Below, piece after piece: positions 12,830 through 55,870 of a stretch of DNA of 64,000 nt (position 1 is the first letter of the stretch; each line of letters starts with the position of its first letter). The notes under the pieces were generated by a model. That model ran no database searches. It was given only the letters and a program-made list of their open reading frames with translations, and had not been told where the DNA came from. A program made the position numbers and the translations under genes. This DNA comes from a virus. The DNA is taken from the IMG/VR virus record IMGVR_UViG_3300044697_000009, positions 21,262-85,261 of that record. One strand, written 5' to 3'.

Positions 12830-14071
12830 TTAGGTATTTACGATGTTGTTGACCAATACGTTTCTACCTGGGGCCATGCAAAATATCGCCTGATCCGAGT
12901 AGAGACGGAGTTCATAGGCTGCAGAGTTTTCCAAATCGCGGAAAAACTCTTCACCTTGACCAGGTCGTTTAAACGTCATATCAGTTGAACCAACTCGGAA
13001 CCATTCTTCCATAGCAAGGATATAAGCATAACCTTGTTTAACGTAGATAGAAGGCTCGATTTCGATCTCACCGTTTTGTGAGAAGAAACGGAGAGCTTTC
13101 CCACCGTTTTGGAGTTGAACAGAAGAATACGATTCGTCGTATCTGCGGAGAGCAGCTTGGTCAGACAGAACGTTTGACCAGGTACGAGGATTCAAGAGAG
13201 CCAAGACGTTACCATCGAGACCTTTTTCAACTGCACGAGCAGTCGCATAGTTCAAGATGTTAAACGAAAGAGCGGAACTTGAAGCGGAATACGTATTACC
13301 TTTCCAGAGGTTAAACTGAGCCGCGTTGATATTAAACAACGTAGTTTGATTCGTAAGAATCATATGGATACCAGGAAATTCGTTACCATAAGCGCCAGCG
13401 TGCCAGATAACGTCGTTAGTCTGAACGCCAGTAGCGTTAGTTGACAATGTAACGGTTTGAGCCGTCATATCAACAGCGGAAACTGAGAAGTTCCCACGAG
13501 ATGTCGAACCGTTGCTGGAACGAATCTCAATCGGCATACCTTCAGCACCAGCCCAGATACCAGGAGCCCATTCAGACGTAGTGATTGTAAGAACAGCGCC
13601 AGACGTACTAGCGATGGTCGCGTAACCAACTTGTCCATAGAGCATCTCGATTTCGAGCTTTTTAGCCATAGAACGGAGCATGTTGGCAACGAGGAATTTC
13701 GTCGCATCCATGAACGCTTTTTGACCACCAAGGGCTGCACGAGAAGCAGCGGCATAACCGAGCAGTGAACGAAGCACTACAGGATTACCACGGACTTGAG
13801 CATCCTTGATTTGACCAGCGATAGGAGCATTCAAATTGAAAGCATCTTCATCACTAGCAGCAAAGGTGATACCATGTTCCAGACCCAAGATAACAGGTTG
13901 ATGGTAAAGGTTACCAGGCTGTTTATCTTTAGACAGGAACTTGATTTTATTCATGAGCTTAACTCCATCAGGAATCAGCTCGCCAAGTTTATCAGCGTAG
14001 GTTTCTTTGAAGAAACCGTTAAGGGTACCAACCGAGTTATTCGGGGTACCAAATGTATTTGCACTCGCCAT
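12830..14071 (-). CDS. Major capsid protein (HK97-fold type)
   Basis: The 413-residue product follows the scaffold gene and one small gene, and ends at a strong terminator, the usual layout for an abundant capsid protein. Features typical of HK97-fold capsid proteins include a long helix region (FLVANMLRSMAKKLEIEMLYG, residues about 125-145), a beta-rich central domain, PGIHMIL, and the C-terminal part (FRDLENSAAYELRLYSD). The N-terminal segment, residues 16-45, recurs in an early protein encoded at 41730-42044, and the first residues resemble those of the 75-residue protein at 15755-15982. Codon use appears more GC-rich than its neighbours, as in highly expressed genes. Confidence 0.85.
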   Translation of the reverse strand: MASANTFGTPNNSVGTLNGFFKETYADKLGELIPDGVKLMNKIKFLSKDKQPGNLYHQPVILGLEHGITFAASDEDAFNLNAPIAGQIKDAQVRGNPVVLRSLLGYAAASRAALGGQKAFMDATKFLVANMLRSMAKKLEIEMLYGQVGYATIASTSGAVLTITTSEWAPGIWAGAEGMPIEIRSSNGSTSRGNFSVSAVDMTAQTVTLSTNATGVQTNDVIWHAGAYGNEFPGIHMILTNQTTLFNINAAQFNLWKGNTYSASSSALSFNILNYATARAVEKGLDGNVLALLNPRTWSNVLSDQAALRRYDESYSSVQLQNGGKALRFFSQNGEIEIEPSIYVKQGYAYILAMEEWFRVGSTDMTFKRPGQGEEFFRDLENSAAYELRLYSDQAIFCMAPGRNVLVNNIVNT

Positions 14072-14766: not shown

Positions 14767-15672
14767 TTACACCCCAAAAAAGGTTTTGAAATTTACTTTC
14801 TTACCAGTTTCTTTAGGTTCTGCTTTTTTACCAACATCGAGAGTTTTGTTGGAACCAACGGCGACTTTTTCTTTCGCCCTAGCAACATTTTTCTTTCTAA
14901 TGCTGTTAATTTTGTCCTTACCAACAAGTTTCTCTACGACTTCATCAGGCATTACCTGAAACATGGACTTTAAGTCTTCCATTACTTCTTCACGAACCAA
15001 TGGAATAACGTCTTCTGGGAGGACGTCTTTACCATTTTGAAGCCCAACAAGCATATAATCTGCAATCTTTTTAACTATATACGGGGATTTAGGAAGATCA
15101 GTTTTTTGAAGTGCTTGATCCATAAGGATGTCATAACGTTCATATTGTTCTTCTGTAAGTCTTTGTTTTTGTTCTTCTAATGCAGCTTGCTTTTCTCTTT
15201 CACGTTCTTCTTTTAAGGCTTTAAGCTCAGCTTCAAGTTTTTCTTTAGCAAGTTGTTCAGGAGATTTCTTAGAGTCAGCAATTTCTTTCTCAATGATATC
15301 AGCTGCTAGTTTTTTAACATCTAGACCGATATGAGGGTCTGAAAGAACACGAGCTGGATCTTTTCGTAAATCTTCAATGAATTTAACTACTTCCTTTTGA
15401 AGACTTGAGAATTCTTCCATCCGTTTACCAGCGACTTTTGCCATCTGGAGTTGACGAGTGATGTATTCATCGTCATTTGGATCGAATTCTTCCTCGAATT
15501 CTTCACCGTCGACTTTGAGTTTAAATTTTCTTTTAGAAGGTGTGGAAGATTGAGCTGGTTTAGTCTGAGCTTGAGTTTCCTGAGTAGTTTCAGGGGTTTC
15601 AGCCGCAGTGTCTTGTGTTTCAATACTATCTGTTGCTTCTGGCGCCGCAGGAGCGGCTTGATCTTGTGCCAT
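14767..15672 (-). CDS. Capsid scaffolding protein
   Basis: The 301-residue product has an Ala/Pro/Gln/Thr-rich N-terminus, then a long Glu/Lys-rich helical region (LEAELKALKEERERE, residues about 145-180, likely coiled coil), and a basic C-terminus (FKTFFGV at the end). This composition and its place upstream of the major capsid gene are typical of scaffolding proteins, whose basic C-terminal helix binds the capsid protein. No protease gene is evident beside it, so the scaffold may leave the head intact. That last point is inference. Confidence 0.75.
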   Translation of the reverse strand: MAQDQAAPAAPEATDSIETQDTAAETPETTQETQAQTKPAQSSTPSKRKFKLKVDGEEFEEEFDPNDDEYITRQLQMAKVAGKRMEEFSSLQKEVVKFIEDLRKDPARVLSDPHIGLDVKKLAADIIEKEIADSKKSPEQLAKEKLEAELKALKEEREREKQAALEEQKQRLTEEQYERYDILMDQALQKTDLPKSPYIVKKIADYMLVGLQNGKDVLPEDVIPLVREEVMEDLKSMFQVMPDEVVEKLVGKDKINSIRKKNVARAKEKVAVGSNKTLDVGKKAEPKETGKKVNFKTFFGV

Positions 15673-17465: not shown

Positions 17466-18463
17466 TACTCAGTCCATTCAATAACTATTAAACCAGAAGA
17501 CCCATTTCCACCAGCACCACCAGAACCTCCAGCACCACCAGATACTAATCCCGCACCACCACCGCCACCGCCGCCTCCTGAACCGCCACCACGTCCTCCA
17601 GTTCCGTTTCCACCAGATGAACCATTTGTTGCAGCACTAGCAGTTGCAGTACTTCCACTAGTTCCATTTCCGCCGGCTCCGCCGTTTCCACCGGAAGGTG
17701 CCGATTGTCCATAAACTGAATATTCATCAGCTGTCGCACCACCACTTCCTCCACCGCCAGCACCTCCTCCCCCATATAAGCTACTAGAACCTGTTCCGTT
17801 AGTGCCTCGTAATCCATTTGTTGAATTAGCGTTAATATATATGAAATATGAATTTGTTGTTCCTGGTGTTCCACTTGTTCCAGCTCCACCATTTCCACCA
17901 GTTGAACTCCCCCCTACGCCACCAGCAGCTCCAGGTCTAGCAGTACCAGAAGTTAAAACTCCAACACCAAATGATGTGCCCGCTGTACCAACTGCACCAA
18001 CTGCTCCTCCAGAACTAGAAGTACCAGGATTTCCTGGACCTCCGCCGCCTCCTGGGTATCCGCCAACTGCGTATATTCCATAAGGAATTCCTAAAGTAAT
18101 TAAATTTCCAAAAGATGATATACCACCAAATCCTCCAGAATTTCCAGTAGTACCAATATTACCAGCAGAACCTCCATTAGCGGCAGATCCACCTGAACCA
18201 CCAGCTCCGATTGTTACTGTATATGTAGTTCCAGGGACAACTGTTAATGGGAAATACCAACCAGATGCAGCACCACCAGAACCTCCAGAAGAACCACCTG
18301 CGCCGCCTCCTCCTGCTCCAGTGTAACCTCCACCTCCTCCACCGCCACTACCACCTCCACCAGCTCCTGGTCTTATATAAATTCTAATATTTTCAACACC
18401 AGCCGGTGCTGTCCAAGTTCCACTTGTTGTAAATATTTGAGAAACTTTTCTAGATTGAGACAT
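17465..18463 (-). CDS. Glycine-rich adhesin-like protein, copy 2
   Basis: The 332-residue product shares the plan of its neighbours: FTTSGTWTAPAGVENIRIYI, RPGAGGGG, VPGTTYTVTIGAGGSGG, variable middle, second glycine run, and the end GLIVIEWTE. Its stop touches the start of copy 1 by one base. The variable middle (residues about 125-230) differs strongly from the other two copies, as expected if it forms surface loops. Confidence 0.75.
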   Translation of the reverse strand: MSQSRKVSQIFTTSGTWTAPAGVENIRIYIRPGAGGGGSGGGGGGGYTGAGGGGAGGSSGGSGGAASGWYFPLTVVPGTTYTVTIGAGGSGGSAANGGSAGNIGTTGNSGGFGGISSFGNLITLGIPYGIYAVGGYPGGGGGPGNPGTSSSGGAVGAVGTAGTSFGVGVLTSGTARPGAAGGVGGSSTGGNGGAGTSGTPGTTNSYFIYINANSTNGLRGTNGTGSSSLYGGGGAGGGGSGGATADEYSVYGQSAPSGGNGGAGGNGTSGSTATASAATNGSSGGNGTGGRGGGSGGGGGGGGAGLVSGGAGGSGGAGGNGSSGLIVIEWTE

Positions 18464-18717
18464 TACCCATTACCATTAACTATAATAGTTCCATCGGGAG
18501 AAGTATAAGTATCTGGATTTGGATATATAGGAGGTAGATATGACCAACCGATTTGTGGTATACAGCTAACTCCATTTAAAGTTAAATTATCTATTCTATT
18601 TACGTAATCGAAATTTTCTCCACCTAATGGATTAACAAAGAATAAATCAAGTATTGAATCATCATCTAATTCAAATACATTAACAATAAAACCTTGTGAA
18701 ATTTGCGCGTATGTCAT
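18463..18717 (-). CDS. Small protein between adhesin genes
   Basis: The 84-residue product begins MTYAQISQGFIVNVFELDDD and contains CIPQIGWSYLPPIYP. Short proteins with such an IGWSY segment often accompany phage fibres, perhaps as assembly factors. It overlaps both neighbours by one base. Function is not established. Confidence 0.65.
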   Translation of the reverse strand: MTYAQISQGFIVNVFELDDDSILDLFFVNPLGGENFDYVNRIDNLTLNGVSCIPQIGWSYLPPIYPNPDTYTSPDGTIIVNGNG

Positions 18718-19697
18718 TATTCAATCCATTCTATAACTAACAATCCATTACTTCCTTGCGATCCTGCGGCACCATTTCCACCACTTCCACCAGTTGTACC
18801 GCCAGCTCCGCCACCACCGCCTCCTCCACCACCAGCACCACCTCTACCGCCAGTTGGTTGAGAACCAGGATTTGTACCAGATACGCCATTTGAACCTGTA
18901 GTTAAACTTGCATTTCCACCATTACCACCGTTACCAGCTGTCCCACCTGTTGGAGCGCCAACTCCATAGACATTGTATTCATCACCATTTGAAGCAGTGC
19001 CACCAGCGCCGCCAGCGCCACCACCACCGTTTGTTGATATTCCGGTGCCACCTGTTCCCGAAGTTGCTAATGTTGGTATAGAATTTATTGGAGAAAAAAA
19101 TATATTAGCGGCAGGAGTTCCTACCGTTCCACCATTACTGCCATTAGCACCTGTATCAGAACCACCTGCTCCACCGGAAGAACCATTAGCACCAAGACCA
19201 GGTAATAGTCCATATACGCCACCATTTGAAGCCACACCGCCTCCAGTTCCTCCCGTTGTTGAAGTTCCTGCACCGCCTAAATGACTAGCCAAACCACCAT
19301 TTCCTCCTCCAGTTATATTATTTTGACCAGCAGAAATTAAAGATCCAAGACTTGTTATTCCACCATTACCACCGGCAGATCCTGCAGTTCCAGGATTTCC
19401 AGCAGAACCTCCAGTTCCAGCTGTTCCGCCTGAACCCCCAGAACCAACTGTAACCGTGTATGAAGTTCCTGGAGTAACCATTAAAGATGTATAAAATCCA
19501 GAAGCCGCTCCTCCAGATGATCCTCCACTTCCGCCTCCTCCACCACCGCCAGATGAGCCCGAATATCCTCCCCCACCACCTGCACCACCTCCGCCACCTC
19601 CGGCGCCAGGTCTGATGTAAACTCTTACACTAGTAACGCCAGCAGGAGCCACCCATGTACCAGAAGTTATGAAAGTTGTAAAAAGTTTACGACTCAT
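18717..19697 (-). CDS. Glycine-rich adhesin-like protein, copy 3
   Basis: The 326-residue product starts MSRKLFTTFITSGTWVAPAG, has glycine runs near residues 33-60 and 285-305, the common block TPGTSYTVTVGSGGSGG, and ends GLLVIEWIE. It is the first of the three paralogues in transcription order and follows the large fibre gene by a few bases. Confidence 0.75.
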   Translation of the reverse strand: MSRKLFTTFITSGTWVAPAGVTSVRVYIRPGAGGGGGGAGGGGGYSGSSGGGGGGGSGGSSGGAASGFYTSLMVTPGTSYTVTVGSGGSGGTAGTGGSAGNPGTAGSAGGNGGITSLGSLISAGQNNITGGGNGGLASHLGGAGTSTTGGTGGGVASNGGVYGLLPGLGANGSSGGAGGSDTGANGSNGGTVGTPAANIFFSPINSIPTLATSGTGGTGISTNGGGGAGGAGGTASNGDEYNVYGVGAPTGGTAGNGGNGGNASLTTGSNGVSGTNPGSQPTGGRGGAGGGGGGGGGAGGTTGGSGGNGAAGSQGSNGLLVIEWIE

Positions 19698-32861: not shown

Positions 32862-33705
32862 AGACCAAGTATTAAAGCGTATTAAGGGCAACGACCTACG
32901 TATTAAGTACAAACCTAGGAAACATACGTTTGAAGCAAGTAATCTCGTTATAGACGCGAATACAATGCAAGGTTGGTCATACGACTGGTATACAATCTTA
33001 CATTACTTCGATAAAACGTTGGTGTTAAATACCTATCGTTATTCACATTCAACTATTAAACACGTATATAAAATCATGAGTCTTTTGGATACATTAGGTT
33101 TAAAATACGAATGTCTTGAAGCACCTCAAGGTCTCCAGGATTTACATAGTTCAGTATTTTATAATATCAAAGAATTAGCTAAGTTTATCGTGAAACAGAA
33201 ATATTCGAAAACGAAGATTTACGACTTTAACATTAAAGAACAACGAAAACAGTTAAAACTACTGAATAAATTAGGTTTTCCCTATAGTAAAAAAGAATTA
33301 GAACTACAGATTGAGGTCGAAGAAAAGAAACGAGACCAACGTTTGATTCAACAACGTGAATACCATAAGAAGCGTGCAGCTGAACTATCCGCAAAACGTA
33401 AAGAACGAGCTGAAATTTTAAAGAAATTCAAATCATCTAAGTACGTTCTTATGAGTCTTTGGAACAACCTTGTTACTGTAGTAACCCTTAATAAATTCTT
33501 AAGAACACATAATATTGATATTGAAAATTTTTCTAAATATTACAATGTGAAAAAAAGTATTTTAGATACACTTGAGAACTACGATTTGTTGAACTCAGAA
33601 GCGATAACCTCGCTGAAAAAAGCACAGAATGCATACAATGTAATGCAAAAGTTTAAACAGTCTCAAAACGATTATAACGCAGTATATAATGTCGAAGTTG
33701 TGTAA
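32854..33705 (+). CDS. Hypothetical basic protein with coiled coil
   Basis: The ATG at 32854 follows AAAGGA and is preferred over a longer frame from a TTG at 32815. The 283-residue product (MTKDQVLKRIKGNDLRIKYK) is Lys/Tyr-rich, with a long basic helix about residues 150-190 (EVEEKKRDQRLIQQREYHKK). It may bind nucleic acid. No family recognised. Confidence 0.65.
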   Translation: MTKDQVLKRIKGNDLRIKYKPRKHTFEASNLVIDANTMQGWSYDWYTILHYFDKTLVLNTYRYSHSTIKHVYKIMSLLDTLGLKYECLEAPQGLQDLHSSVFYNIKELAKFIVKQKYSKTKIYDFNIKEQRKQLKLLNKLGFPYSKKELELQIEVEEKKRDQRLIQQREYHKKRAAELSAKRKERAEILKKFKSSKYVLMSLWNNLVTVVTLNKFLRTHNIDIENFSKYYNVKKSILDTLENYDLLNSEAITSLKKAQNAYNVMQKFKQSQNDYNAVYNVEVV

Positions 33706-35083: not shown

Positions 35084-35917
35084 ATGCTTAATGAAAAAGC
35101 TGTATTAGTGAATCTTAAGATCTCCCAGTGGACTGGTCGGAAGTTTGATAAACGTGCAACGTCAACGGTCGTAACGACGCATAACACTGACGTACAGGCA
35201 GGTAACTATTCAAAGAAACTCTTACCCGGAGCAAAAGAACTTGACGCAATACAGAATACGTCAGCTAACATACGTAGCTTTTTTTATCAACAAACGTTGC
35301 CTTGGTGTAACGAAGGCTCTAGAATCCTTGCTAGTTCAAATTACCTAGGTTTCACTAACGCGATTCGTACCCATAAATCAGAATTCGAAACCGCTGTCAA
35401 GGAGTTTATTAAAAAATACCCAGAACTTAAGGACATGGCCAAGACTAAACTCGGTGATTTGTTCAACGACTACGAATACCCAGACGTTGCGACACTTCAA
35501 AACTCGTTTGGTTGCGAAGTTTCCTACATGCCGGTGCCTACAGTTGGTGACTTCCGCGTTGAGTTAACGCCTGAAGAAAAACAGAACTTCGAAAAACAAA
35601 TTAAACTTGCTGAGACTCAGGCATTAAACGACGTATGGCAACGTTTAAACTCGGTCGTATCAAAAGCAGTTGATAAACTAAAGTCTCCTGATGCCGTGTT
35701 TCGTGATTCACTAATTGAGAATATTCAAGATTTATGTAACCTTTTGCCAAGACTTAATGTCACTGAAAACGAAAACGTTGAGAAAATGCGGCAAGACGTA
35801 CAAAAAATTGTTGACAGCATTAGCGCTGAAGATTGTAGAAAAATCCCCGAAGTCCGTTCACATGCCGCCGAACGCCTTGATGAAGCAATGAAACGTATGT
35901 CTGGGTTTATTTCATGA
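35084..35917 (+). CDS. DUF3150-like protein (MoxR partner)
   Basis: The ATG at 35084 follows GAGG. The 277-residue product starts MLNEKAVLVNLKISQWTGRK, and FDKRATSTV follows. This matches the start of DUF3150 proteins, which are usually encoded between a MoxR ATPase and a VWA-metallopeptidase. The rest is helical. Its biochemical role in the trio is not known. Confidence 0.7.
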   Translation: MLNEKAVLVNLKISQWTGRKFDKRATSTVVTTHNTDVQAGNYSKKLLPGAKELDAIQNTSANIRSFFYQQTLPWCNEGSRILASSNYLGFTNAIRTHKSEFETAVKEFIKKYPELKDMAKTKLGDLFNDYEYPDVATLQNSFGCEVSYMPVPTVGDFRVELTPEEKQNFEKQIKLAETQALNDVWQRLNSVVSKAVDKLKSPDAVFRDSLIENIQDLCNLLPRLNVTENENVEKMRQDVQKIVDSISAEDCRKIPEVRSHAAERLDEAMKRMSGFIS

Positions 35918-36117
35918 AACCTTTGACTGAACTCGAATACAAACTTTTAACGCCGGGCATGAAAGTTAAGTGTATTGATCATACACTTACAACGAGTCTT
36001 GAAAAATATAAAATCTATAAAGTAAAAACTATATGTTTTAATTGTATTGTTGTTGAAGAAACTCCGCATTTTTTACCGTTTGCTTATTCTAGATTTACGT
36101 TAGATTTAGGGGAATAA
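35914..36117 (+). CDS. Small PGxKxKCI/RFTLDL family protein (member A1)
   Basis: The 67-residue product has the family pattern found in eight genes here: an N-terminal helix, TPGMKVKCI, KIYKV, and a terminal SRFTLDLGE. The predicted fold is a small beta barrel, perhaps SH3-like. It overlaps the DUF3150 stop by 4 bases. Confidence 0.7.
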   Translation: MKPLTELEYKLLTPGMKVKCIDHTLTTSLEKYKIYKVKTICFNCIVVEETPHFLPFAYSRFTLDLGE

Positions 36118-36119
36118 CT

Positions 36120-37238
36120 ATGAACGAAAAGATTTCAAAAGCAAAAGCATTGCTGGTACTTGATCAACCGTTTTTCGCAAGTCTCCTTTTGACGATGCCG
36201 ATTCATGAAGACAAAAAGATTACTACAATGGCAACAAACGGCGATTGGATCAAGTTTAACCCAGAATTCGTTGATAAATTATCGATTCAAGAACTTATCT
36301 TTGTCCTAGCGCATGAAACAATGCACTGCGTTTTCCAGCACATGCTTAGACGTGGGGATAAAAACCATAATAAATACAATATTGCGGGGGATTATGTCAT
36401 TAACGATCATTTGATTCGCGAACATGTAGGCGAAATGCCTCATGGCGGACTTCATAACCCCCAGTTAGTACAAGAAGGCAATGGGACGACTGAAGGCGTT
36501 TATGCCTTATTACCTAAGGAAGACGAACAAAAAACAGCGGGCAACATGGGTCAAGGTGGAAGCATGGATGAAGTCGAGTCCGATGACTTGACCCAGGCAG
36601 AAGCAAATCAAAAGTCTGAAGAAATGCGAGTCAAGGTTATTCAGGCAAAGAACGCGGCTAAGACGTGTGGCAAATTCTCAGCAGGCCTTGAGAGACTCGT
36701 TAATGATTTAACCCGCCCTAGAATTGACTGGAGAACAGTATTGAGACGATTCTTAAGCGATCGGGCAAAAGTTGATCTGAGTTATGCAAAACCTAAGCGG
36801 CGTTTCATGGCCGACGACGTAAACCTGCCAAGTCTGTTAGGTGAGCAGTTAGGTGAAATCGTCATTGCAGTTGATTGTTCAGGCAGTATTGATGACAAAC
36901 TTCTAAACGAGTTTGGTACTGAAATTTCAAGTATCAAAGAAGACACAAAACCAGTGAAAGTCCACGTAATTTATTTTGATTCTGAAGTCCTAAGGCATGA
37001 TGAATTCTCAAGAGACGACGACCTTCGCATCAACGCATGCGGTGGCGGTGGGACGGCATTCTCACCCGTGTTTAGATATATCCAAAACAAAAACATTAGC
37101 CCTGTGGCATGTGTATTTTTGACTGATCTTCAGTGCAATGACTTCGGTCAAACACCGAGTTACAATGTAATGTGGGCATCGACTGACAATGGCAATGCGC
37201 CGTTTGGTGAAATCTTATTATTGAAAGATGCCGCATGA
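36120..37238 (+). CDS. VWA-like metallopeptidase protein (DUF2201)
   Basis: The 372-residue product has an N-terminal zincin-type motif, LAHETMHCVFQHMLRRG (HExxH, about residues 64-68), followed by YNIAGDYVINDHLI, and a C-terminal VWA-like domain with IVIAVDCSGSIDD (a DxSxS metal site, about residue 250) and GGGGTAFSPVF. This two-part build is DUF2201, the usual partner of MoxR ATPases and DUF3150. All catalytic and metal residues are present. The target is unknown. Confidence 0.8.
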   Translation: MNEKISKAKALLVLDQPFFASLLLTMPIHEDKKITTMATNGDWIKFNPEFVDKLSIQELIFVLAHETMHCVFQHMLRRGDKNHNKYNIAGDYVINDHLIREHVGEMPHGGLHNPQLVQEGNGTTEGVYALLPKEDEQKTAGNMGQGGSMDEVESDDLTQAEANQKSEEMRVKVIQAKNAAKTCGKFSAGLERLVNDLTRPRIDWRTVLRRFLSDRAKVDLSYAKPKRRFMADDVNLPSLLGEQLGEIVIAVDCSGSIDDKLLNEFGTEISSIKEDTKPVKVHVIYFDSEVLRHDEFSRDDDLRINACGGGGTAFSPVFRYIQNKNISPVACVFLTDLQCNDFGQTPSYNVMWASTDNGNAPFGEILLLKDAA

Positions 37239-37444
37239 AACCGTTAGATGAAATCTCTTTGAAGTTTTTAAAGCCCGGCACGAAACTTAAATGTATTAAT
37301 GCCATATATGAATTGAGAAATGGAGAAATATACGAATTTATGGAAATTTATTCCATTAACAATGGAAATATAACAATTAATTTAAAAAATGTTAAACATA
37401 CTTATTTCATTAACCGTTTTACACTAGACTTGGGATGTGAATGA
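37235..37444 (+). CDS. Small PGxKxKCI/RFTLDL family protein (member A2)
   Basis: The 69-residue product begins MKPLDEISLKFLKPGTKLKC and ends NRFTLDLGCE. It overlaps neighbours by ATGA-type junctions. Function unknown. Confidence 0.7.
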   Translation: MKPLDEISLKFLKPGTKLKCINAIYELRNGEIYEFMEIYSINNGNITINLKNVKHTYFINRFTLDLGCE

Positions 37445-38088
37445 AAGCATTTAATAACAATACTTACATAAAACAAGAGATCGTGGGAAATCTAGTAAAA
37501 TCAAGATTCACATCTCAAAACATTACACTACAAACGGATTCATTACCGAAGTGGTTAGTCTTTTATTTAAATTGCCAACCTGATAAAAATAGAATTCTTG
37601 AAGTCATCAACGCTATAGAGCCGGGAATGGACTTAGATAATATAAAGCAGTTATTCATGATTCATGTCCTTGAATTCTCACTACTTCAGTTCGATCATTC
37701 AAAAAATCTGAAAGTTAAAAAAGCGATTATACAAGTAATAAATCTTTATAAACAAAACAATACTGACAAAAAAAAATGGAATGCCGCTCAATCCGCCGCT
37801 TATGCCGCCTCTAATGCTACTTATGCCGCTAATGCCATTAATGCCGCTTATGCCGCTAATGCCGCCTATGCCGCCTCTAATGCTACTTATGCCGCTAATG
37901 CCGCCGCCTATGCCGCCTCTAATGCTACTTATGCCGCTAATGCCGCTAATGCCGCCGCCTATGCCGCCGCCTATGCCGCCGCTAATGCTACTTATGCCGC
38001 TTGTGCCGCCGCTTATGCCGCCGCTCAAAACAGGTTATTAGACTACTTAATTAAATTAATACAAGACTTAAAGGTAAATGCTGCATGA
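37441..38088 (+). CDS. Protein with alanine-rich helical repeats
   Basis: The 215-residue product has an ordinary N-terminal half (residues 1-115) and then about 80 residues of Ala/Tyr/Asn repeats such as AASNATYAANA, with the last part LLDYLIKLIQDLK. Ala-rich repeats with Tyr at regular spacing likely form an amphipathic helical array; related composition occurs in some toxin-immunity-like proteins. The start codon overlaps the preceding gene's TGA. Confidence 0.65.
   Translation: MKAFNNNTYIKQEIVGNLVKSRFTSQNITLQTDSLPKWLVFYLNCQPDKNRILEVINAIEPGMDLDNIKQLFMIHVLEFSLLQFDHSKNLKVKKAIIQVINLYKQNNTDKKKWNAAQSAAYAASNATYAANAINAAYAANAAYAASNATYAANAAAYAASNATYAANAANAAAYAAAYAAANATYAACAAAYAAAQNRLLDYLIKLIQDLKVNAA
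37788..38025 (+). repeat. Coding minisatellite (GCC-rich tandem repeats)
   Basis: Units such as TCTAATGCTACTTATGCCGC recur with spacers built from GCC/GCT codons. The repeated block is much richer in G and C than its surroundings and encodes the alanine repeats. It is prone to slippage, so length should vary between relatives. Confidence 0.75.
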
Positions 38089-38309
38089 CTCCTATAACTA
38101 AAGACATGCTCATATATTTACAACGTGGGACGAAGGTAAAAAGCCTTGAAAATAGAGGCCACAGGGAAATTGGATTAGTAAAAGATAAGATTTATACGAT
38201 TAATAGAATTTATCCTACAGAAAGTTTAGATGGATATCTTTCATTACAAGAAGTTCCTAGTCCTATTTATTTATCAACTAGATTTACATTGGACTTAGAG
38301 GAAAAATGA
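38085..38309 (+). CDS. Small PGxKxKCI/RFTLDL family protein (member A3)
   Basis: The 74-residue product (MTPITKDMLIYLQRGTKVKS) keeps the family end STRFTLDLEEK but has RG in place of PG. It is coupled by an ATGA overlap on both sides. Confidence 0.65.
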   Translation: MTPITKDMLIYLQRGTKVKSLENRGHREIGLVKDKIYTINRIYPTESLDGYLSLQEVPSPIYLSTRFTLDLEEK

Positions 38310-40099: not shown

Positions 40100-40675
40100 T
40101 GTTATAGTGTCTGAGTCTAATACTATCTAAGACTTATACATGGCAGAGTTTTAATTCTCTAATGATTTCAATCCCCTAACATTGGCACGAACTGTGAAAT
40201 ACCAATTACCAGACAGCACGAGTAACGAGACGATAAGATCTACTCGGAAGCAAGTCGAAGTAAGGTGGTTGACTTCAAGTATTGAGATGACATAATGTAG
40301 GTAAATTAGTGGACGGTCTTTAGACTTATGGAACTAGTTCGAAACATTAGTAGTCGGTATCAAGTAAACCTTGCAAGCTTAACAAGTACTATGAGAAAAA
40401 GTCGTTGCTTTTTCCATGGGATACGGATGGCGGGTTACCATCACGGGACGAATCTCCCGGCGGACAGCGGACCTTACTTACCTCGGGGCTTTAATGCCTA
40501 AAACACAGGGGTTATACGGAATCACGAAACACGCGGTTTCCCAAGAGAAGTACGGCAACGATGCTTTAACCGTGGAAATAAGGATTCTTTCGAATAAAAG
40601 TCGAAACGGCGGGATAGCATGGCCTAGGCCTAAACTTTCCTAGCTGTCTAACGATGAGGTCGTTACTGATGAGAC
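40100..40675 (+). ncRNA. Large structured RNA candidate (about 570 nt)
   Basis: No good gene fits here. The zone is packed with perfect hairpins: CGAGTA/TACTCG (40219-40246), GAAAAAG/CTTTTTC (about 40394-40413), GATGG/CCATC (about 40426-40442), CGGGA/TCCCG (about 40444-40459), AACGA/TCGTT (about 40650-40664), plus ATTGG/CCAAT near 40180-40206. The 3' half is more GC-rich than its surroundings. Size and phage context fit large ornate RNAs such as GOLLD or ROOL, but no class can be assigned by eye. Confidence 0.6.
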
Positions 40676-40698
40676 TATCTAAAACTGTAATTATTAAA

Positions 40699-40866
40699 AT
40701 GACTAGAAAAGATGCCGAAGAATTAGGTCTTCTGATTTGTAAATGTGGGCATCCTAGAAACAATCATTTTGATTTTGATGAAAAACCTTGCGCACATTGT
40801 CCATGTAAATATTTTCACGAAATTTCTCGACGTGGTATTATAATTAAATCAAGGAGTAAAAAATGA
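40699..40866 (+). CDS. Small zinc-binding protein
   Basis: The 55-residue product (MTRKDAEELGLLICKCGHPR) has CKCGH, followed by CAHCPC and KYFHEI, resembling small zinc proteins. The start is uncertain; upstream ATGs at 40654 and 40669 fall in the putative RNA. No strong ribosome site. Confidence 0.5.
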   Translation: MTRKDAEELGLLICKCGHPRNNHFDFDEKPCAHCPCKYFHEISRRGIIIKSRSKK

Positions 40867-40973
40867 TAATTAGTACATCCAATTGCATGGTTTCTTTATT
40901 TAATCTTTTTTGGATTTAAAGTAGGAAGAAAATGTAAAATGAGATACTTTGAATATCAAGTTAGGAATCGAAA

Positions 40974-41303
40974 ATGAAGTTTTACTTAACAATATTCGCA
41001 TTGATTTTATTAGGCTGTAGTCCTGGAGACTACGCTACGTTACAAGGCCCACCAGGGCCGCAAGGTCCTATTGGAAATCCTGGTAGTAGTGTTACAATGG
41101 TACAGTTTTGTTCGAATTATTCAACTACATACCCGTCAACATTTCCTGAATACGGATTCTGTGTATCAAATAATCTTTATGCAACGTATTGGAATGGGAC
41201 AGATGCTTGGACTGCGGAAATCGTACCTGGGTATTATGATTCAACATCAACGTCTGCTCCTTGTAGTTTTACTGTTTTACCTAACTGTGTGGTGGAAAAT
41301 TGA
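40974..41303 (+). CDS. Lipoprotein with short collagen-like segment
   Basis: The 109-residue product has a lipoprotein signal, MKFYLTIFALILLGC, then GPPGPQGPIGNPG (collagen-type triplets, about residues 25-37) and a Cys-containing C-terminal domain with three later Cys residues. It is expected on the host envelope. Lipoproteins with this collagen-like plan occur in several Gram-negative bacteria, so it may be host-derived. Confidence 0.7.
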   Translation: MKFYLTIFALILLGCSPGDYATLQGPPGPQGPIGNPGSSVTMVQFCSNYSTTYPSTFPEYGFCVSNNLYATYWNGTDAWTAEIVPGYYDSTSTSAPCSFTVLPNCVVEN

Positions 41304-41521
41304 ATCGCAAATACAAACGTCTTAATAAATTTATGTTGAAATTCTTACAACCCGGAGTTAAAGTAAAATACGTAGGAAATCTTCGAGAAAATCATCATTA
41401 TAAATTAAAACGTTATAAAGTCTATGAATTCATTAATTATTTTGGTTACAATCATGTGATTATTCATGCTGAGAATCGTAATATCAACGTTCCATGCCAT
41501 GCATTTACATTGGATATCTAA
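41300..41521 (+). CDS. Small PGxKxKCI/RFTLDL family protein (member A4)
   Basis: The frame uses a TTG start at 41300, overlapping the preceding stop, with GGTGG upstream. The 73-residue product has LQPGVKVKYVG and ends CHAFTLDI. The start choice is supported by the family length. Confidence 0.6.
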   Translation: MNRKYKRLNKFMLKFLQPGVKVKYVGNLRENHHYKLKRYKVYEFINYFGYNHVIIHAENRNINVPCHAFTLDI

Positions 41522-41733
41522 TGAAGACATTTCCTAAACATTTAAAAAAACTTCTAGTACCTGGAGTTAAACTAAAGTGTGTAGATGATTCTTCAAATAC
41601 GCGTAAAGATAAAATAAAAATGAATGAGATTTACACATTTGACGGCTGGCATGAAGTATGGGACAATGAAATTTATATAAAAGAAAACAATCAGTCTTGG
41701 TTTATAGATCGGTTTACATTGGATTTAGAATGA
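41521..41733 (+). CDS. Small PGxKxKCI/RFTLDL family protein (member A5)
   Basis: The ATG at 41521 overlaps the previous stop (TAATG). The 70-residue product has LVPGVKLKCVDD, NEIYTF and the end DRFTLDLE. Confidence 0.7.
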   Translation: MKTFPKHLKKLLVPGVKLKCVDDSSNTRKDKIKMNEIYTFDGWHEVWDNEIYIKENNQSWFIDRFTLDLE

Positions 41734-42044
41734 CCCTCACTGCTGAAGCATTAAAATTTTTGCCAGATGGCACAAGACTTAGAAGCCTAGTGAATGATGT
41801 TGGTCTTGAATTTAATAAAATCTATACTTTAGATATATTTCCTAAGACTTATTCCACACTTAATGGAATGTTAAAAGAATTATACGCAGATAAATTAATT
41901 GAATTAATTCCTGATGGCGTAGGTTTATTATCTAAAATCAAGTTTAATCGCACTGAATTTAAAACACAAGTATTATCACTCAAAGAATTTCCATATAAAG
42001 AATTCCCTATTAGTTATTTTTCTCTAGACTTGGAGTCATTATGA
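41730..42044 (+). CDS. Family A member with an inserted capsid N-terminal segment (A6)
   Basis: The 104-residue product begins MTLTAEALKFLPDGTRLRSL and ends YFSLDLESL, as family A members do, but is about 30 residues longer. Residues 43-72 (bases 41856-41945), from TLNGMLKELYADK to LLSKIKF, match residues 16-45 of the major capsid protein at 23 of 30 positions; by my count the DNA matches at 60 of 90. The insert accounts for the extra length. It could act on capsid assembly, for example by binding the scaffold or portal; this is inference. Confidence 0.75.
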   Translation: MTLTAEALKFLPDGTRLRSLVNDVGLEFNKIYTLDIFPKTYSTLNGMLKELYADKLIELIPDGVGLLSKIKFNRTEFKTQVLSLKEFPYKEFPISYFSLDLESL

Positions 42045-42217
42045 AAATGAAAATCGTTGAATCCTTGAAACCAATCTGTGTAATCTGTGGCGAAAAAAAC
42101 CTAGAGTTGTATTACAATGACACAGAAGTCCGGTGTTTAAAATGTATTCCAACAGGGCATAATGTCGAAACTAGAAATGAAACGTTTGAAGTCAAGAAAC
42201 CTGAGGCGTTACACTAA
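42041..42217 (+). CDS. Small zinc-ribbon protein
   Basis: The 58-residue frame (MKMKIVESLKPICVICGEKN) has CVICG and CLKC, a four-Cys zinc site. It overlaps the preceding stop by ATGA and the next start by TAATG. Confidence 0.65.
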   Translation: MKMKIVESLKPICVICGEKNLELYYNDTEVRCLKCIPTGHNVETRNETFEVKKPEALH

Positions 42218-42498
42218 TGTGGAAAGTTGGCGATAAAATCAAATGTATTTTATATGATGGCGATTCTATCCAACCTTGGATAACTATAGGAAAGACCTAT
42301 GAAATACTCGAAGTCATAAAAAATTATCATTACGATAATGAACATAAAGATAAATATAATCAACAATATAGAATAATGAATGACCAAGGTGGAAGTTGGT
42401 GGATACAACCGCATTGTTTTAAACTAGTATTTAAAACTACGGGCCCAGAGAAATCTGAAGTCGAAATCCTGGATAGAATACAAGAGAATTTTAAATGA
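42217..42498 (+). CDS. Small VGDKIKC/LDRIQENFK family protein (member B1)
   Basis: The 93-residue product starts MWKVGDKIKCILYD and has a small beta domain (GKTYEILEVI, WWIQPHCFKLV). It ends exactly with EVEILDRIQENFK. Four other genes here share this terminal motif. It lies two genes before the first amidoligase cluster. Confidence 0.7.
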   Translation: MWKVGDKIKCILYDGDSIQPWITIGKTYEILEVIKNYHYDNEHKDKYNQQYRIMNDQGGSWWIQPHCFKLVFKTTGPEKSEVEILDRIQENFK

Positions 42499-42713
42499 AA
42501 CCATTAGATGAAACTACAGTAAAATTCCTAACGCCCGGAGTGAAATTAAAATGTATCGTTAAGGGGGAAAAATATTCTCTACAAACAAATAAAACATACA
42601 CATTTAACAACATATCTGGAATAATTAACGATATAACAGTAATTTGTGTTATGGAAGGAAATAAAAAATTAGGCCCATATTTTGCTTATAGATTTACATT
42701 GGATTTAGAATGA
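42495..42713 (+). CDS. Small PGxKxKCI/RFTLDL family protein (member A7)
   Basis: The 72-residue product has LTPGVKLKCIV, NKTYTF and the end YRFTLDLE. Overlaps neighbours by 4 bases. Confidence 0.7.
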   Translation: MKPLDETTVKFLTPGVKLKCIVKGEKYSLQTNKTYTFNNISGIINDITVICVMEGNKKLGPYFAYRFTLDLE

Positions 42714-42913
42714 CTGATATTGAATACAAACTTTTAACTCCAGGTATGAAAATAAAACGTATTAAGATTTCAACGGCGGTTTATAATATAAAAATAGGGA
42801 GTATATCCACAGTTGAGAAAACATTTGAACTTATTGATAGAAAATTTATTCAAGTTAAAGAATGCGATCAGTTTTGGTATTTTCATGAAGATTTTACATT
42901 GGAGATTGATTAA
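42710..42913 (+). CDS. Small PGxKxKCI/RFTLDL family protein (member A8)
   Basis: The 67-residue product has LLTPGMKIKRIK and the end EDFTLEID, a diverged form of the family end. Its start overlaps A7's stop. Confidence 0.65.
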   Translation: MTDIEYKLLTPGMKIKRIKISTAVYNIKIGSISTVEKTFELIDRKFIQVKECDQFWYFHEDFTLEID

Positions 42914-47715: not shown

Positions 47716-47925
47716 ATGTTGAAACTCGTTAAAGTCAAAACTATGTTTGGATTTGAAATGAACTTTAGGCATCATCAGTTACTAGAGATTCGTCAAGACA
47801 AGAAATACAAAAACGTCTGTCATATCAGGACTTCAATACGAGACAAAGAAGGTAAGCCTATGTGGTTTACTGTAGAACACTCGGCGATTGATGTAATCAA
47901 CCGTTATAACGAAACGAAAGGTTAA
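47716..47925 (+). CDS. Hypothetical basic protein
   Basis: The 69-residue product (MLKLVKVKTMFGFEMNFRHH) is basic and has a small-barrel look (VKVKT, FTVEHSAI). It directly precedes the second amidoligase. Confidence 0.6.
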   Translation: MLKLVKVKTMFGFEMNFRHHQLLEIRQDKKYKNVCHIRTSIRDKEGKPMWFTVEHSAIDVINRYNETKG

Positions 47926-47927
47926 GT

Positions 47928-49265
47928 ATGTACAGTCTTAAGACAAGATCTATTACTAAAAAAATAGACAAATCAACGTACTCTAAATACATGAGTGTTA
48001 GGAAACTTCTTAAGGAATATAATAAAACTCATACTAATAATATCGATGAACTAGAGTATGCCCAAAATGAAATGAAGCAGTTTATTAGGAAGTTTCGTAA
48101 AGAATTAAAAGAATGTAAAACTGAATACAAATTCTCGTATGTCGTTAAAAACAGGTCATGGAAATATTTATTTGGCGATAGTATTAGCCATTCATTTGAG
48201 ATCAATACGTTCCATGATTCAAGTATTTTAAAGAACTTTAGACATGAAATGGTTCATAAAAACCTTTTCTTTAGCCAAGAAAAACCTAAAATCGAATGGT
48301 TCAAAGAAATCAACCAAAAAATCCAGGATAATTATCGTAAAAAGAAAATTCAGAAACGAAGTCTCAGGGTGCAATCTAGAACTGGAGTAAATAAAAACGG
48401 CGATCAAGTACAGTATAAAGTCTGTGGTGCCGTGATGTATCAACGTCCAAAACAGTTAAAGAGAGGTGAATCTCCTAAGACTCATGTATCATATGATAAG
48501 GAAATGATTATGAAGTTAATGAAATCTAGAGACAAACAAGTCATATTTGAAGAAAAGAAACCAAAGACTAAAGACAATTACATTGGTATTGAAATCGAAT
48601 TCTTCTGCGATCTCGATCGTGATGATTTAAGTTACCAACTTGCCAACGAAGGTCTTGGTAAATATGTAGCACTTCATACAGATGGCAGTATCCAACAAGA
48701 CGCTGGAACATTTGATCATGAAATCTGTATCCTTGCAAAAGAAAAAGAAATCTTTGGTGTTGTTAAAGACGTATGTAAAGTTCTTCAAGACGCAAATGCG
48801 AGAGTCAACAAATCTTGCGGGCTTCATGTACATTTGGATATGAGAAATCGTGATCACAAAACGGCGTTCTATAACCTAGCTTCAAGTCAAAATGCTTTAT
48901 TCGCAATGAATCCATTCTCAAGACAAGCTGGAACATATTGTAAACGAATTGATACAAAAGACTTCGCAAAAGCTGCGTGTCAAGACCGGTACTTCGGTAT
49001 TAATGCCCAGGCTTATGAAAAACATAAAACAATTGAAATCCGTATTCATTCTGGAACAATTATGGAAGACAAGATTAATAACTGGGTTAAGATTCTTATG
49101 GCGATTGTTAATAAACCCGAGAAAGTTGAAAAATCAGCTTCAACACTATTGGAATTTGTGACTCAATTCGATATCGATAAAAAACTCACGAAATACATCT
49201 ATGAAAGAGTTTCTAAGTTCGCTGGCGAAGATAAACGTGGCGTTGAAGAACGAGGTGTCGCTTAA
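47928..49265 (+). CDS. Second amidoligase-domain protein
   Basis: The 445-residue product has an N-terminal helical, basic part (to about residue 205) and a C-terminal amidoligase domain with YIGIEIEFFCDLD, FDHEICILAKEKE, KSCGLHVHLDMRN and TIEIRIHSGTIME, matching the glutamate- and histidine-rich blocks of the family. It differs clearly from the first amidoligase, so the two are likely to use different substrates. It directly precedes a family-B small gene and the amidotransferase. Confidence 0.8.
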   Translation: MYSLKTRSITKKIDKSTYSKYMSVRKLLKEYNKTHTNNIDELEYAQNEMKQFIRKFRKELKECKTEYKFSYVVKNRSWKYLFGDSISHSFEINTFHDSSILKNFRHEMVHKNLFFSQEKPKIEWFKEINQKIQDNYRKKKIQKRSLRVQSRTGVNKNGDQVQYKVCGAVMYQRPKQLKRGESPKTHVSYDKEMIMKLMKSRDKQVIFEEKKPKTKDNYIGIEIEFFCDLDRDDLSYQLANEGLGKYVALHTDGSIQQDAGTFDHEICILAKEKEIFGVVKDVCKVLQDANARVNKSCGLHVHLDMRNRDHKTAFYNLASSQNALFAMNPFSRQAGTYCKRIDTKDFAKAACQDRYFGINAQAYEKHKTIEIRIHSGTIMEDKINNWVKILMAIVNKPEKVEKSASTLLEFVTQFDIDKKLTKYIYERVSKFAGEDKRGVEERGVA

Positions 49266-49505
49266 ATGTTTAAAGCTGGCGATAAAGTTATGGTAATAAT
49301 CCCCATAGGTCATTTACAACAGAATGATATTAGAACTCTTAGAATCCATCACTATACAAAAAAACTTTATATACCTCACAATGAAGGTACTAAAGAAGGA
49401 TGGTGGGTTGAAGGAAATGAAAAATGTTTAAAATTACTACAAAAGCCCGCACCTAAAACAGAAATAGAAGCTTTAGATCGTTTTCAACAGAATTTTAAAT
49501 ACTAA
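49266..49505 (+). CDS. Small VGDKIKC/LDRIQENFK family protein (member B2)
   Basis: The 79-residue product starts MFKAGDKVMVIIPIG and ends TEIEALDRFQQNFKY. It lies between the second amidoligase and the amidotransferase. Confidence 0.7.
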   Translation: MFKAGDKVMVIIPIGHLQQNDIRTLRIHHYTKKLYIPHNEGTKEGWWVEGNEKCLKLLQKPAPKTEIEALDRFQQNFKY

Positions 49506-49514
49506 GGAGATTAT

Positions 49515-50600
49515 ATGTGTAAAATTTGTATCATCCCTGGAATTACCGACAAGACTACAGAACTCGTTTGGAAATTCATTACAAAAATGTCAAAAGAAAT
49601 GTCTGGATATTCTGAAACCGATGGATTTGGATATGCAGCTTTTGACGGCCAAGGTAATTTGTTTGGTGAACGTTGGCTTAATCCTAAAGAAGCATTCTCA
49701 AACCGTGATGAAAAAAATATCCTCGTACAAGAATTGATTCATAAATACAAAGGATTCTTGAGAGGAAAGCTTCCTATCTACAATAAATTCGGCGAAGGTA
49801 ATATGAATAGTCTTAGGACTGCTATACTTCACGCAAGGAATGCAACAACCGAGAAAGGACTCATCAATGTCCATCCTTTTGTTCATGGAGACTCGGCATT
49901 GATCCATAACGGAATAATCGCAAATCATGAACAACTTCACAAAAAATACTCTACATGTGATAGTGAAGTCATATTGACTGAATACAATAAATTTAACGTA
50001 ACTAACAATATTAAGAACATCAATAACGTTGCATCAAAACTTGATGGATATTATGCATGTAGTGTATTATCTAAAACTGATGACAATAAGTACATAGTCG
50101 ATGTATTTAAAGAAGATTCGGCAAGACTTAAAGGTTATTTCATCAAGGAATTTAATACTGTTGTATTCGCTACTCCCGGTGCAAATGATACCTACGGTCC
50201 GATTCAATCCGTATGTCGAGACTTAAACCTAACTATTGTGGACGAATTTGATCTTGAAGACTCAAGTCTCCTTCGAATGGATGCAATGACCGGCGAAGTC
50301 TTAGATATGTGCAAGTTCAATTCTAAATTCAAGAAAGGTAAACGAGAAGTCACTGTTATTGATAAATGGACTCAAGAATTCGGTAACCATAACCGTGGCG
50401 GCGGCAGTCAACGAAGTTTCTCTGAAAAACAAAAAGATGAAGAACTTGAACGTCAGTTACTTGAGAATCTTTCATTTATGAACTACGAAGACGATACAAA
50501 AGAATTCACGGTATTGAATCAAGAAACGAAGTTCAATGAAGCCGGAGACTGGGAACAATCTGAGAATGGTGTCTGGAGAAAGAAAACGGCGGCACAATGA
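49515..50600 (+). CDS. Class II glutamine amidotransferase-like protein
   Basis: The 361-residue product has an N-terminal nucleophile-type start, MCKICIIPG, with Cys2 as the expected catalytic residue. HARNATTEKG, VHPFVHGDSALIHNGIIAN and CDSEVILTEYNKF match the GATase_6 family that frees ammonia from glutamine. The C-terminal part (after about 260) is a charged extension. In this context it could supply ammonia to an amide-forming ligase. AAGGAG precedes the start. Confidence 0.85.
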   Translation: MCKICIIPGITDKTTELVWKFITKMSKEMSGYSETDGFGYAAFDGQGNLFGERWLNPKEAFSNRDEKNILVQELIHKYKGFLRGKLPIYNKFGEGNMNSLRTAILHARNATTEKGLINVHPFVHGDSALIHNGIIANHEQLHKKYSTCDSEVILTEYNKFNVTNNIKNINNVASKLDGYYACSVLSKTDDNKYIVDVFKEDSARLKGYFIKEFNTVVFATPGANDTYGPIQSVCRDLNLTIVDEFDLEDSSLLRMDAMTGEVLDMCKFNSKFKKGKREVTVIDKWTQEFGNHNRGGGSQRSFSEKQKDEELERQLLENLSFMNYEDDTKEFTVLNQETKFNEAGDWEQSENGVWRKKTAAQ

Positions 50601-50839
50601 CTAGAAAGTTCAAACCTGGAGACAAAGTTCTAAGAACTATTGATTCTGGAGCCTATGGAATCACAGTCCCAGGGCAAATCTATACAGTGAAAAGAACGAA
50701 AGACAACGGACATATAGCATTAGTCGAATGCCCAGATGGATTTGGATATTCAATGAAATCGTTTACTTTAGTAAGTACTGCTCCATTAACGGAATTTGAA
50801 TGGTTAGATAGAGTACAGGAGAATTTTAAAGATGTATGA
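50597..50839 (+). CDS. Small VGDKIKC/LDRIQENFK family protein (member B3)
   Basis: The 80-residue product starts MTRKFKPGDKVLRTID and ends TEFEWLDRVQENFKDV. It overlaps the amidotransferase by 4 bases and the next gene by 8. Confidence 0.7.
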   Translation: MTRKFKPGDKVLRTIDSGAYGITVPGQIYTVKRTKDNGHIALVECPDGFGYSMKSFTLVSTAPLTEFEWLDRVQENFKDV

Positions 50840-54850: not shown

Positions 54851-55436
54851 AGATTTAAGATATAACGGAAAAATTATTTTTCCTGAAGAAAAGTTGATGT
54901 TTAAGGCATTGGAATTAACACCAATTGAAAAGGTTAAAGTTGTAATATTGGCCCAGGATTGTTATCATGGAGAAAGACAAGCAAATGGGTTAGCTTTCTC
55001 GGTAAATAGAGGTGAGAAAATACCACCGTCACTACAGAACATTTTCCTTGAACTTTGTACAGATCTTGATATTCCAGTACCTAGTCATGGAGATTTAACT
55101 AAGTGGGCGGAACAAGGTGTATTACTTCTGAATTCTGTATTAACTGTTGAGAAAGGTAAACCTGGTAGTCATTTTGGTATTGGCTGGGAGGATTATACAA
55201 ATAATATTATTAAAAAAGTGAATCAAAAACAAACGCCTGTAGTATTTATGTTGTGGGGAAAGAAAGCACAAGAAAAATCATATCTTATAGATAATAGTAT
55301 CCATCTTGTACTAACTGCAAGTCATCCTTCACCTCTGTCCGCTTATCGTGGATTTTTAGGATGCGGTTGTTTTAGTGAATGTAACAAGTTCTTAGAATCT
55401 AGATCTATTTCAGGAATTGACTGGAGACTTGAATAA
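54789..55436 (+). CDS. ung: Uracil-DNA glycosylase, family 1, altered 5' end
   Basis: The 215-residue product has VKVVILAQDCYHG (water-activating Asp present, but Cys in place of the usual Pro of QDPYHG), NGLAFSV, LLLNSVLTVE and SHPSPLSAYRGFLG with the catalytic His. It removes uracil from DNA. The first 20 or so residues lie over the end of the HNH gene, there is no clear ribosome site, and the usual N-terminal helix seems replaced. It may still be active if translated by coupling. Confidence 0.8.
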   Translation: MMNMQNSFLVNLPEQTLKQIKDLRYNGKIIFPEEKLMFKALELTPIEKVKVVILAQDCYHGERQANGLAFSVNRGEKIPPSLQNIFLELCTDLDIPVPSHGDLTKWAEQGVLLLNSVLTVEKGKPGSHFGIGWEDYTNNIIKKVNQKQTPVVFMLWGKKAQEKSYLIDNSIHLVLTASHPSPLSAYRGFLGCGCFSECNKFLESRSISGIDWRLE

Positions 55437-55870
55437 TGCGTGTCGGTGATGTAGTAACTCCATACAAGAAAATGTATGATAAGTTTAAACCTAGACGTTT
55501 AGAATATGGAAAGAAATATATTGTAACTGAATTTGCTAGAACTGAAATCGAAGATAGGAAATACGGACTTCAAGGAGTTCGACTTAGATATTTAAATGGA
55601 CAACCAGTAGGTGAATATTATGTAAATAATAAAAACGTAGGATATCCATATCCCATGACAATGTTCTATATAGTGGAACAACGAGGTAAACCAGTATCTG
55701 AAATCGAGTACTTAGACCGTATACAAAAGAACTTTAAAGATGATGAAGTTAAACCTAGGTATTCAGTAGCTCAAATAAGAAATCTTATGGATACAATAAA
55801 TAATACGAATGTTGATGAAGTTATTAATATTGATGAAGTTATTGAAGAAATCATGGGTACGGAAGAATAA
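55436..55870 (+). CDS. Family B protein with C-terminal extension (B5)
   Basis: The 144-residue product starts MRVGDVVTPYKKMYD, has the motif EIEYLDRIQKNFK (about residues 85-97) and then about 45 acidic residues ending EEIMGTEE. It overlaps the glycosylase stop by one base. Confidence 0.7.
   Translation: MRVGDVVTPYKKMYDKFKPRRLEYGKKYIVTEFARTEIEDRKYGLQGVRLRYLNGQPVGEYYVNNKNVGYPYPMTMFYIVEQRGKPVSEIEYLDRIQKNFKDDEVKPRYSVAQIRNLMDTINNTNVDEVINIDEVIEEIMGTEE

Follow-up and report, generated by a model that had tools for sequence, protein, structure and literature searches.

The chimeric gene P0001

We analysed 64,000 nucleotides (the window; positions 21,262 to 85,261) of the IMG/VR virus record IMGVR_UViG_3300044697_000009, which is 85,261 bases long. 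The gene under study encodes P0001, a protein of 104 residues in which a domain of a small protein family (family A) is interrupted in frame by a piece of the N-terminal arm (N-arm) of a major capsid protein (MCP). The open reading frame (ORF) is intact. Its start overlaps the stop of the upstream gene and its stop overlaps the start of the downstream gene, each by ATGA. The first-pass annotation, made from the letters alone, called the gene early; its plus strand and neighbouring genes fit this label, which otherwise assumes the expression.

The insert comprises residues 42-72 of P0001 (STLNGMLKELYADKLIELIPDGVGLLSKIKF). On recount, P0001 residues 43-72 and MCP residues 16-45 are identical at 23 of 30 amino acids and 60 of 90 bases, exactly as first counted. 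The match was found by BLASTP among the ORFs of the genome (E 9e-11) and in a search of the genome's own six frames (E 5e-10). With a profile of the MCP segment, the insert reached 55.5 bits, whereas the best score in three shuffled ORF sets was 16.4 bits. Of the 15 positions conserved to at least 90% among 54-58 MCPs, the insert also retains 13.

With the insert removed, P0001 aligns with family A, as the first-pass annotation had claimed. The closest paralog, which has no insert, aligns on both sides: its KIYTINRIYPTESLDGYLSLQEVPS corresponds to KIYTLDIFPKTY-[insert]-FKTQVLSLKEFPY in P0001. Hence, the insert probably sits in a mid-domain loop. The phmmer match between the two proteins (Table 1) is independent of the family-A profile, which gives P0001 67.6 bits (E 6e-20) but contains P0001 itself.

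A likeness that arises from chance or from the 'LxPGVKL' motif of family A itself would require that the aligner confuses the family-A stretch 'LTPGVKLKCI' with 'LIPDGVKLMNKI'. The match, however, spans TLNG..KE.YADKL, which is missing from family A, and neither the alignment of the paralog around the insert nor the scores of the shuffled controls fit a coincidence. The 23 of 30 identities, at E values of about 1e-10, rule out such an artefact, whose probability we regard as negligible. A MAFFT misalignment had suggested that the insert conceals another family-A domain; this was also rejected, because the 30 residues match the MCP and the paralog aligns around them.

P0001 is thus a chimera of a family-A protein and an in-frame MCP N-arm piece, as homology, position and frame show; it is real, unusual and partly explained. 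No match to P0001 was found in annotated phages or in IMG/VR, and the PHROG search gave a single match, to an uncharacterised family at residues 6-25.

Table 1 P0001, the coat genes and the family-A genes of the window
Feature	Position	Strand	Basis
Chimeric small protein P0001, 104 residues, family-A domain with MCP N-arm insert	41730..42044	+	Intact ORF, homology
Insert, P0001 residues 42-72	41853..41945	+	55.5 bits against profile of MCP residues 16-46
Major capsid protein (MCP), 413 residues, HK97 fold	12830..14071	-	PHROG and Foldseek
MCP residues 15-45, helical N-arm segment matching the insert	13937..14029	-	Alignment, model
Small basic, lysine-rich late protein, 75 residues	15755..15982	-	Motif common to MCP; upstream of scaffold gene
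Probable scaffolding protein, 301 residues, charged	14767..15672	-	Position and composition; no family match
Closest paralog of P0001, no insert	38085..38309	+	phmmer E 0.0038
Family-A paralog	35914..36117	+	Family search
Family-A paralog	37235..37444	+	Family search
Family-A paralog	41300..41521	+	Family search
Family-A paralog directly upstream, 4-base overlap with P0001	41521..41733	+	Family search
Family-A paralog	42495..42713	+	Family search
Family-A paralog	42710..42913	+	Family search

The eight members of family A in the genome all lie on the plus strand within the window. From its sequence pattern, the family probably folds as a small SH3-like barrel. The domain as a whole has no Pfam match above threshold and no PHROG family, and IMG/VR searches with four members returned only one match, of 22 residues.

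The coat protein and a second head protein with the N-arm motif

The MCP matches phrog_14242 (major head protein) over residues 16-401 with E 4.5e-15. Its AlphaFold model, with a predicted local distance difference test (pLDDT) value of 66, was compared by Foldseek with the PDB and matched the capsids of SU10, SPO1, HK97 and others as well as encapsulins. Many of these matches have a probability of 1.00 and E values reach down to 1e-7, at modest template modelling (TM) scores of 0.26-0.59. Residues 17-42 lie in a low-confidence part of the model, which places them as short helices before a disordered stretch; by this prediction, they are the N-arm of an HK97-fold coat. Isolated phages hold no close MCP, and the one distant match (30%) is CP017838.1. 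The adjoining gene at 11232-12731 (minus strand) encodes 499 residues with an HNH-like N-terminal part and a C-terminal domain of the Mom family (PF25680, 1.8e-11).

We gathered sixty-odd relatives of the phage by MCP similarity. In about 18 of them, as in this phage, a conserved gene that lies upstream of the scaffold gene and has 30-75 codons starts with M[AS]xxNTFxSLKPxxKExYSD, which resembles the MCP start, MAxxNTF...TLNGLFKExYADK. The protein of this phage begins with MASINTFNGLLPDMKETYSD and has no PHROG match. At 10 bits or more, a profile of the N-terminus detected 23 non-MCP ORFs but only 3 in ten shuffled sets. The shared start suggests that the coat N-terminal motif serves a second head protein. 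The neighbouring product is probably the scaffolding protein, to judge from its position and composition.

Origin of the insert

At the DNA level, the insert is about equally distant from the MCPs of most relatives. It shares 60 of 93 bases with the MCP of its own genome, 51-62 of 93 with those of a first set of relatives and at best 67 of 93, with L135. The GC content at third codon positions (GC3) of the insert is 0.19, as in its early gene, whereas the own MCP segment has 0.48. A recent duplication of the own MCP is ruled out, because the DNA identity is no higher than to many relatives and the GC3 values differ. The insert comes from a diverged relative or has been resident long enough for codon change, and its GC3 would fit either long residence or an AT-rich donor.

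Divergence from the own coat would also suit a weapon against rivals, in which a dominant-negative arm spoils the assembly of a satellite or of a second phage in the same cell. A precedent is SaPI1 CpmB, which competes with the 80alpha scaffold at the coat-scaffold interface (PMC5644958). However, an insert about equally like the coats of many relatives, its own included, should also poison the phage itself. The interference with other phages or satellites that the first-pass annotation had considered gained no specific support, and we regard it as very improbable.

The coat genes themselves offer another route. In about a quarter of the relatives, group I introns or insertions of a similar kind split the MCP gene somewhere from codon 21 to codon 86 (at about codons 21, 49, 55, 57, 64, 67, 78, 80 and 86), sometimes two or three times per gene (loci L019-L022, L024, L026, L027, L029, L030, L035, L037, L041, L045, L046, L139 and L148). 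Rfam group I introns were identified in L139 (two) and L035, and L046 holds a GIY-YIG-like ORF. What seemed a second copy of the MCP in L046 proved to be a middle exon with an intron on either side. Such insertions are an obvious source of ectopic repair, and segmental amplification driven by homing endonucleases is documented in T6 (PMC13096335). The insert could then be coat-gene debris, that is, an MCP fragment copied ectopically (for instance, by double-strand-break repair at a homing-intron hotspot) into a tolerant loop, with no selected role and a conservation inherited from the donor MCP. Against this stands that the own MCP has no intron and that the segment ends at none of the intron sites seen. 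The insert spans MCP codons 15/16-45, with the intron site at codon 21 inside it; a spliced exon was rejected because these boundaries do not fit intron sites. The window holds no Rfam intron, which does not fit an intron- or exon-derived fragment. Debris would also require an unsampled, diverged donor.

Selection on the segment

A codon tree of 50 MCPs was used to estimate omega, the ratio of nonsynonymous to synonymous substitution rates; the fits for the insert use 31 codons and a uniform omega. The N-arm segment has an omega of 0.046, compared with 0.10 for the whole MCP, and is about twice as constrained. The branch of P0001 attaches near L135/L046; it favours an omega of about 0.05-0.2, and omega = 1 is worse by 4.7 log-likelihood (lnL) units.

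A two-phase model lets this branch evolve first like a coat gene and then, for a second stretch, within the early gene. Under constraint, the best lnL was -2345.6, compared with -2348.2 for a neutral later phase (0.2 substitutions per codon) and -2348.7 for no later phase. A neutral phase longer than about 0.9 substitutions per codon costs more than 2 lnL units, which counts against debris. Coat-like evolution in an unsampled donor, followed by capture and a short neutral phase, trails the constrained model by only about 2.5 lnL units.

The first-pass annotation had taken conservation of the protein above that of the DNA as a sign of selection. The poor fit of omega = 1 agrees with this, but the neutral two-phase model carries only a small penalty. 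Such conservation is weaker proof of selection in the early gene than claimed, because the constraint may stem from the MCP donor lineage. Constraint after the transfer is mildly favoured by the codon fits, short of a demonstration.

Coat-like pieces in small genes of relatives

Coat-like pieces also occur in small non-structural ORFs of relatives, which is new here. Two of these, in G060 and G029, are clear.

G060: The ORF at 47841-48278 (minus strand) encodes 146 residues that end in INSFFALTYFWKLNDLVPDDIKLLDKIKKV. This end is identical to the MCP of its own genome at 15 of 28 positions and scores 24 bits.

G029: The ORF at 40530-41072 (plus strand; L126) is a shrunken, degenerate MCP paralog of about 172 residues in which two stretches match in colinear order (24 bits, E 2.9e-5). 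It holds E-loop, spine-helix and C-terminal stretches and lies about 1 kb from the HNH/lysis locus described below.

G061: The ORF at 33418-33630 (minus strand) carries KLNAMFKKLYSKDL, which likely is a coat-like piece.

G041: The ORF at 40204-40326 (minus strand) carries TLSGLLKEMYSQDL. The likeness is weak and not secure.

In a sliding-window control with 26 MCP windows, only residues 1-61 gave non-MCP matches far above shuffled ORFs. The scores were 55.5 bits for the insert, 24.0 for G060, 14.7 for G061 and 12.6 for G041. The single match of a C-terminal window is the degenerate paralog of G029. Weaker matches to the second half in G065, G042, G069 and G053 are probably unrelated small domains that start with 'LIPxxVxL'. 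A small, conserved HNH gene beside lysis-type genes is at most about 1.5 kb away from the ORFs of G060, G061, G029 and G041. Clustering at this locus as a general rule was rejected: it fits G060, G061, G029 and perhaps G041 and G023 but fails for P0001.

What was captured differs between phages (the N-arm here, the N-arm at the C-terminus of another protein, a whole but shrunken MCP in G029), which random capture would predict, and no relative has kept the insert of P0001. The N-arm, however, is over-represented among the captured pieces. In view of this, of the intron sites and of the codon fits, debris is the main rival explanation of the insert, only a little less probable in our view than the docking arm proposed below.

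Different coat pieces in different small genes keep a functional reading alive as well. Their recurrence suggests a reuse of coat pieces, most likely for docking onto the capsid-building machinery. In its widest form, the N-arm would be a portable docking tag of the coat, the small basic head protein and several unrelated small non-structural proteins, which would be recruited to assembly or regulate it and perhaps be packaged and delivered into the next cell; so broad a role seems unlikely to us.

The same recurrence in small accessory genes would fit an arms race. P0001 could then act as a decoy or mimic directed at the host, an early protein that shows the coat segment ahead of time and so blunts sensing or occupies a host factor. 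Coat proteins directly trigger bacterial immunity by CapRel (PMC9712102), and a highly conserved peptide of 29 residues in the first quarter of the T4 coat binds EF-Tu and triggers the Lit protease (PMC3014915). Yet the T4 peptide activates rather than protects, the escape mutations from CapRel lie at residues 114-115 of another coat, and the presence of the motif in a late head protein speaks for a structural function. Hence, we consider a decoy quite unlikely.

Proposed function of P0001

In the procapsids of P22 and 80alpha, the C-terminus of the scaffold contacts the coat N-arm (PMC9965877; PMC5644958). By analogy, we propose that the insert of P0001 mimics the docking arm of the coat and binds a partner in capsid assembly. 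MCP codons of about 15-45 would have been inserted in frame from a diverged relative into the ancestor of P0001, at a loop of a small, repeatedly duplicated protein before its C-terminal strands. This graft would let P0001 bind the partner of the coat N-arm, most likely the putative scaffold or the coat lattice. During expression of the early operon, P0001 may then adjust or hold back the assembly of capsids; alternatively, it may be carried into the procapsid. If the N-arm is a portable docking peptide, the same motif is expected in the small basic late protein, along with recurring coat-like pieces.

Several points weigh against this proposal. F21 and K38 are invariant or nearly so in MCPs, and the insert has F21L and K38G, states that are absent from all of them. 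The AlphaFold model of P0001 is without confidence (pLDDT 39), so that the loop position and the fold rest on the sequence. Scaffold binding by the N-arm of this uncultured phage is an analogy taken from P22 and 80alpha, and the codon fits leave room for capture with a short neutral phase. Finally, the chimera is absent from all of the about 70 MCP-bearing relatives: a search of 72 records with P0001 returned MCPs only, apart from a weak second match in G060. The first-pass annotation had named the lack of a similar insert in any relative as a result that would speak against its claim, and none carries one. This absence carries little weight, since hardly any relative has the host family at all; the family-A profile gave one weak match among the relatives, in G041, and is otherwise confined to this genome. 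On balance, we hold the docking-arm mimic as a plausible but tentative reading of P0001.

Coat proteins are usually regarded as pure structure. If the arm is indeed reused in a regulatory-type protein, early gene expression would be coupled to capsid assembly, and the insert would provide a short peptide of natural origin as a handle on how the scaffold docks. If it is debris, coat genes that are repeatedly broken by mobile introns would shed fragments that fuse to other genes, and new proteins could arise in this way. In both cases, the N-terminal motif common to the coat and the small head protein offers a lead on capsid assembly that can be tested.

Other genes in the window

A cluster that starts 1.3 kb downstream of P0001 (43366-50600, plus strand) contains a phiEco32-like COOH.NH2 ligase, an amidoligase and a glutamine amidotransferase. 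On the plus strand, four small proteins that otherwise differ (42217-42498, 49266-49505, 50597-50839 and 55436-55870) have in common a stretch of about 20-34 residues, '...RVQENFK', which is C-terminal in the first three. On the minus strand, three proteins (16473-17465, 17465-18463 and 18717-19697, together 16473-19697) share about 30 N-terminal residues with 56-66% identity.

Comparison with known systems

Coats of the Kuravirus-like phages (SU10/phiEco32 group) are among the closest in structure: in the Foldseek search with the MCP model, chains of SU10 ranked with the best matches, at a sequence identity of 7-10%; the ligase of the window is likewise of the phiEco32 type.

The T4 gp23 Gol peptide resembles the insert in that it is short (about 30 residues), highly conserved, near the start of the coat and able to act apart from it. 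The Gol peptide, however, triggers defence and is not known as a copy in an early protein, and the likeness is drawn from its size, conservation and position.

The docking pairs P22 gp5-gp8 and 80alpha CP-SP use the equivalent helical arm at the N-terminus of an HK97-fold coat, the part copied in P0001. There, the arm is on the coat itself, whereas here it is carried by a small non-structural protein whose docking is proposed by analogy.

SaPI1 CpmB, like P0001, is a small accessory protein that holds one half of the coat-scaffold interface. CpmB is encoded by a satellite and mimics the scaffold half, while P0001 is encoded by the phage and holds the coat half. P0001 belongs to no described family of coat mimics and is closest in action to these proteins of the coat-scaffold interface.
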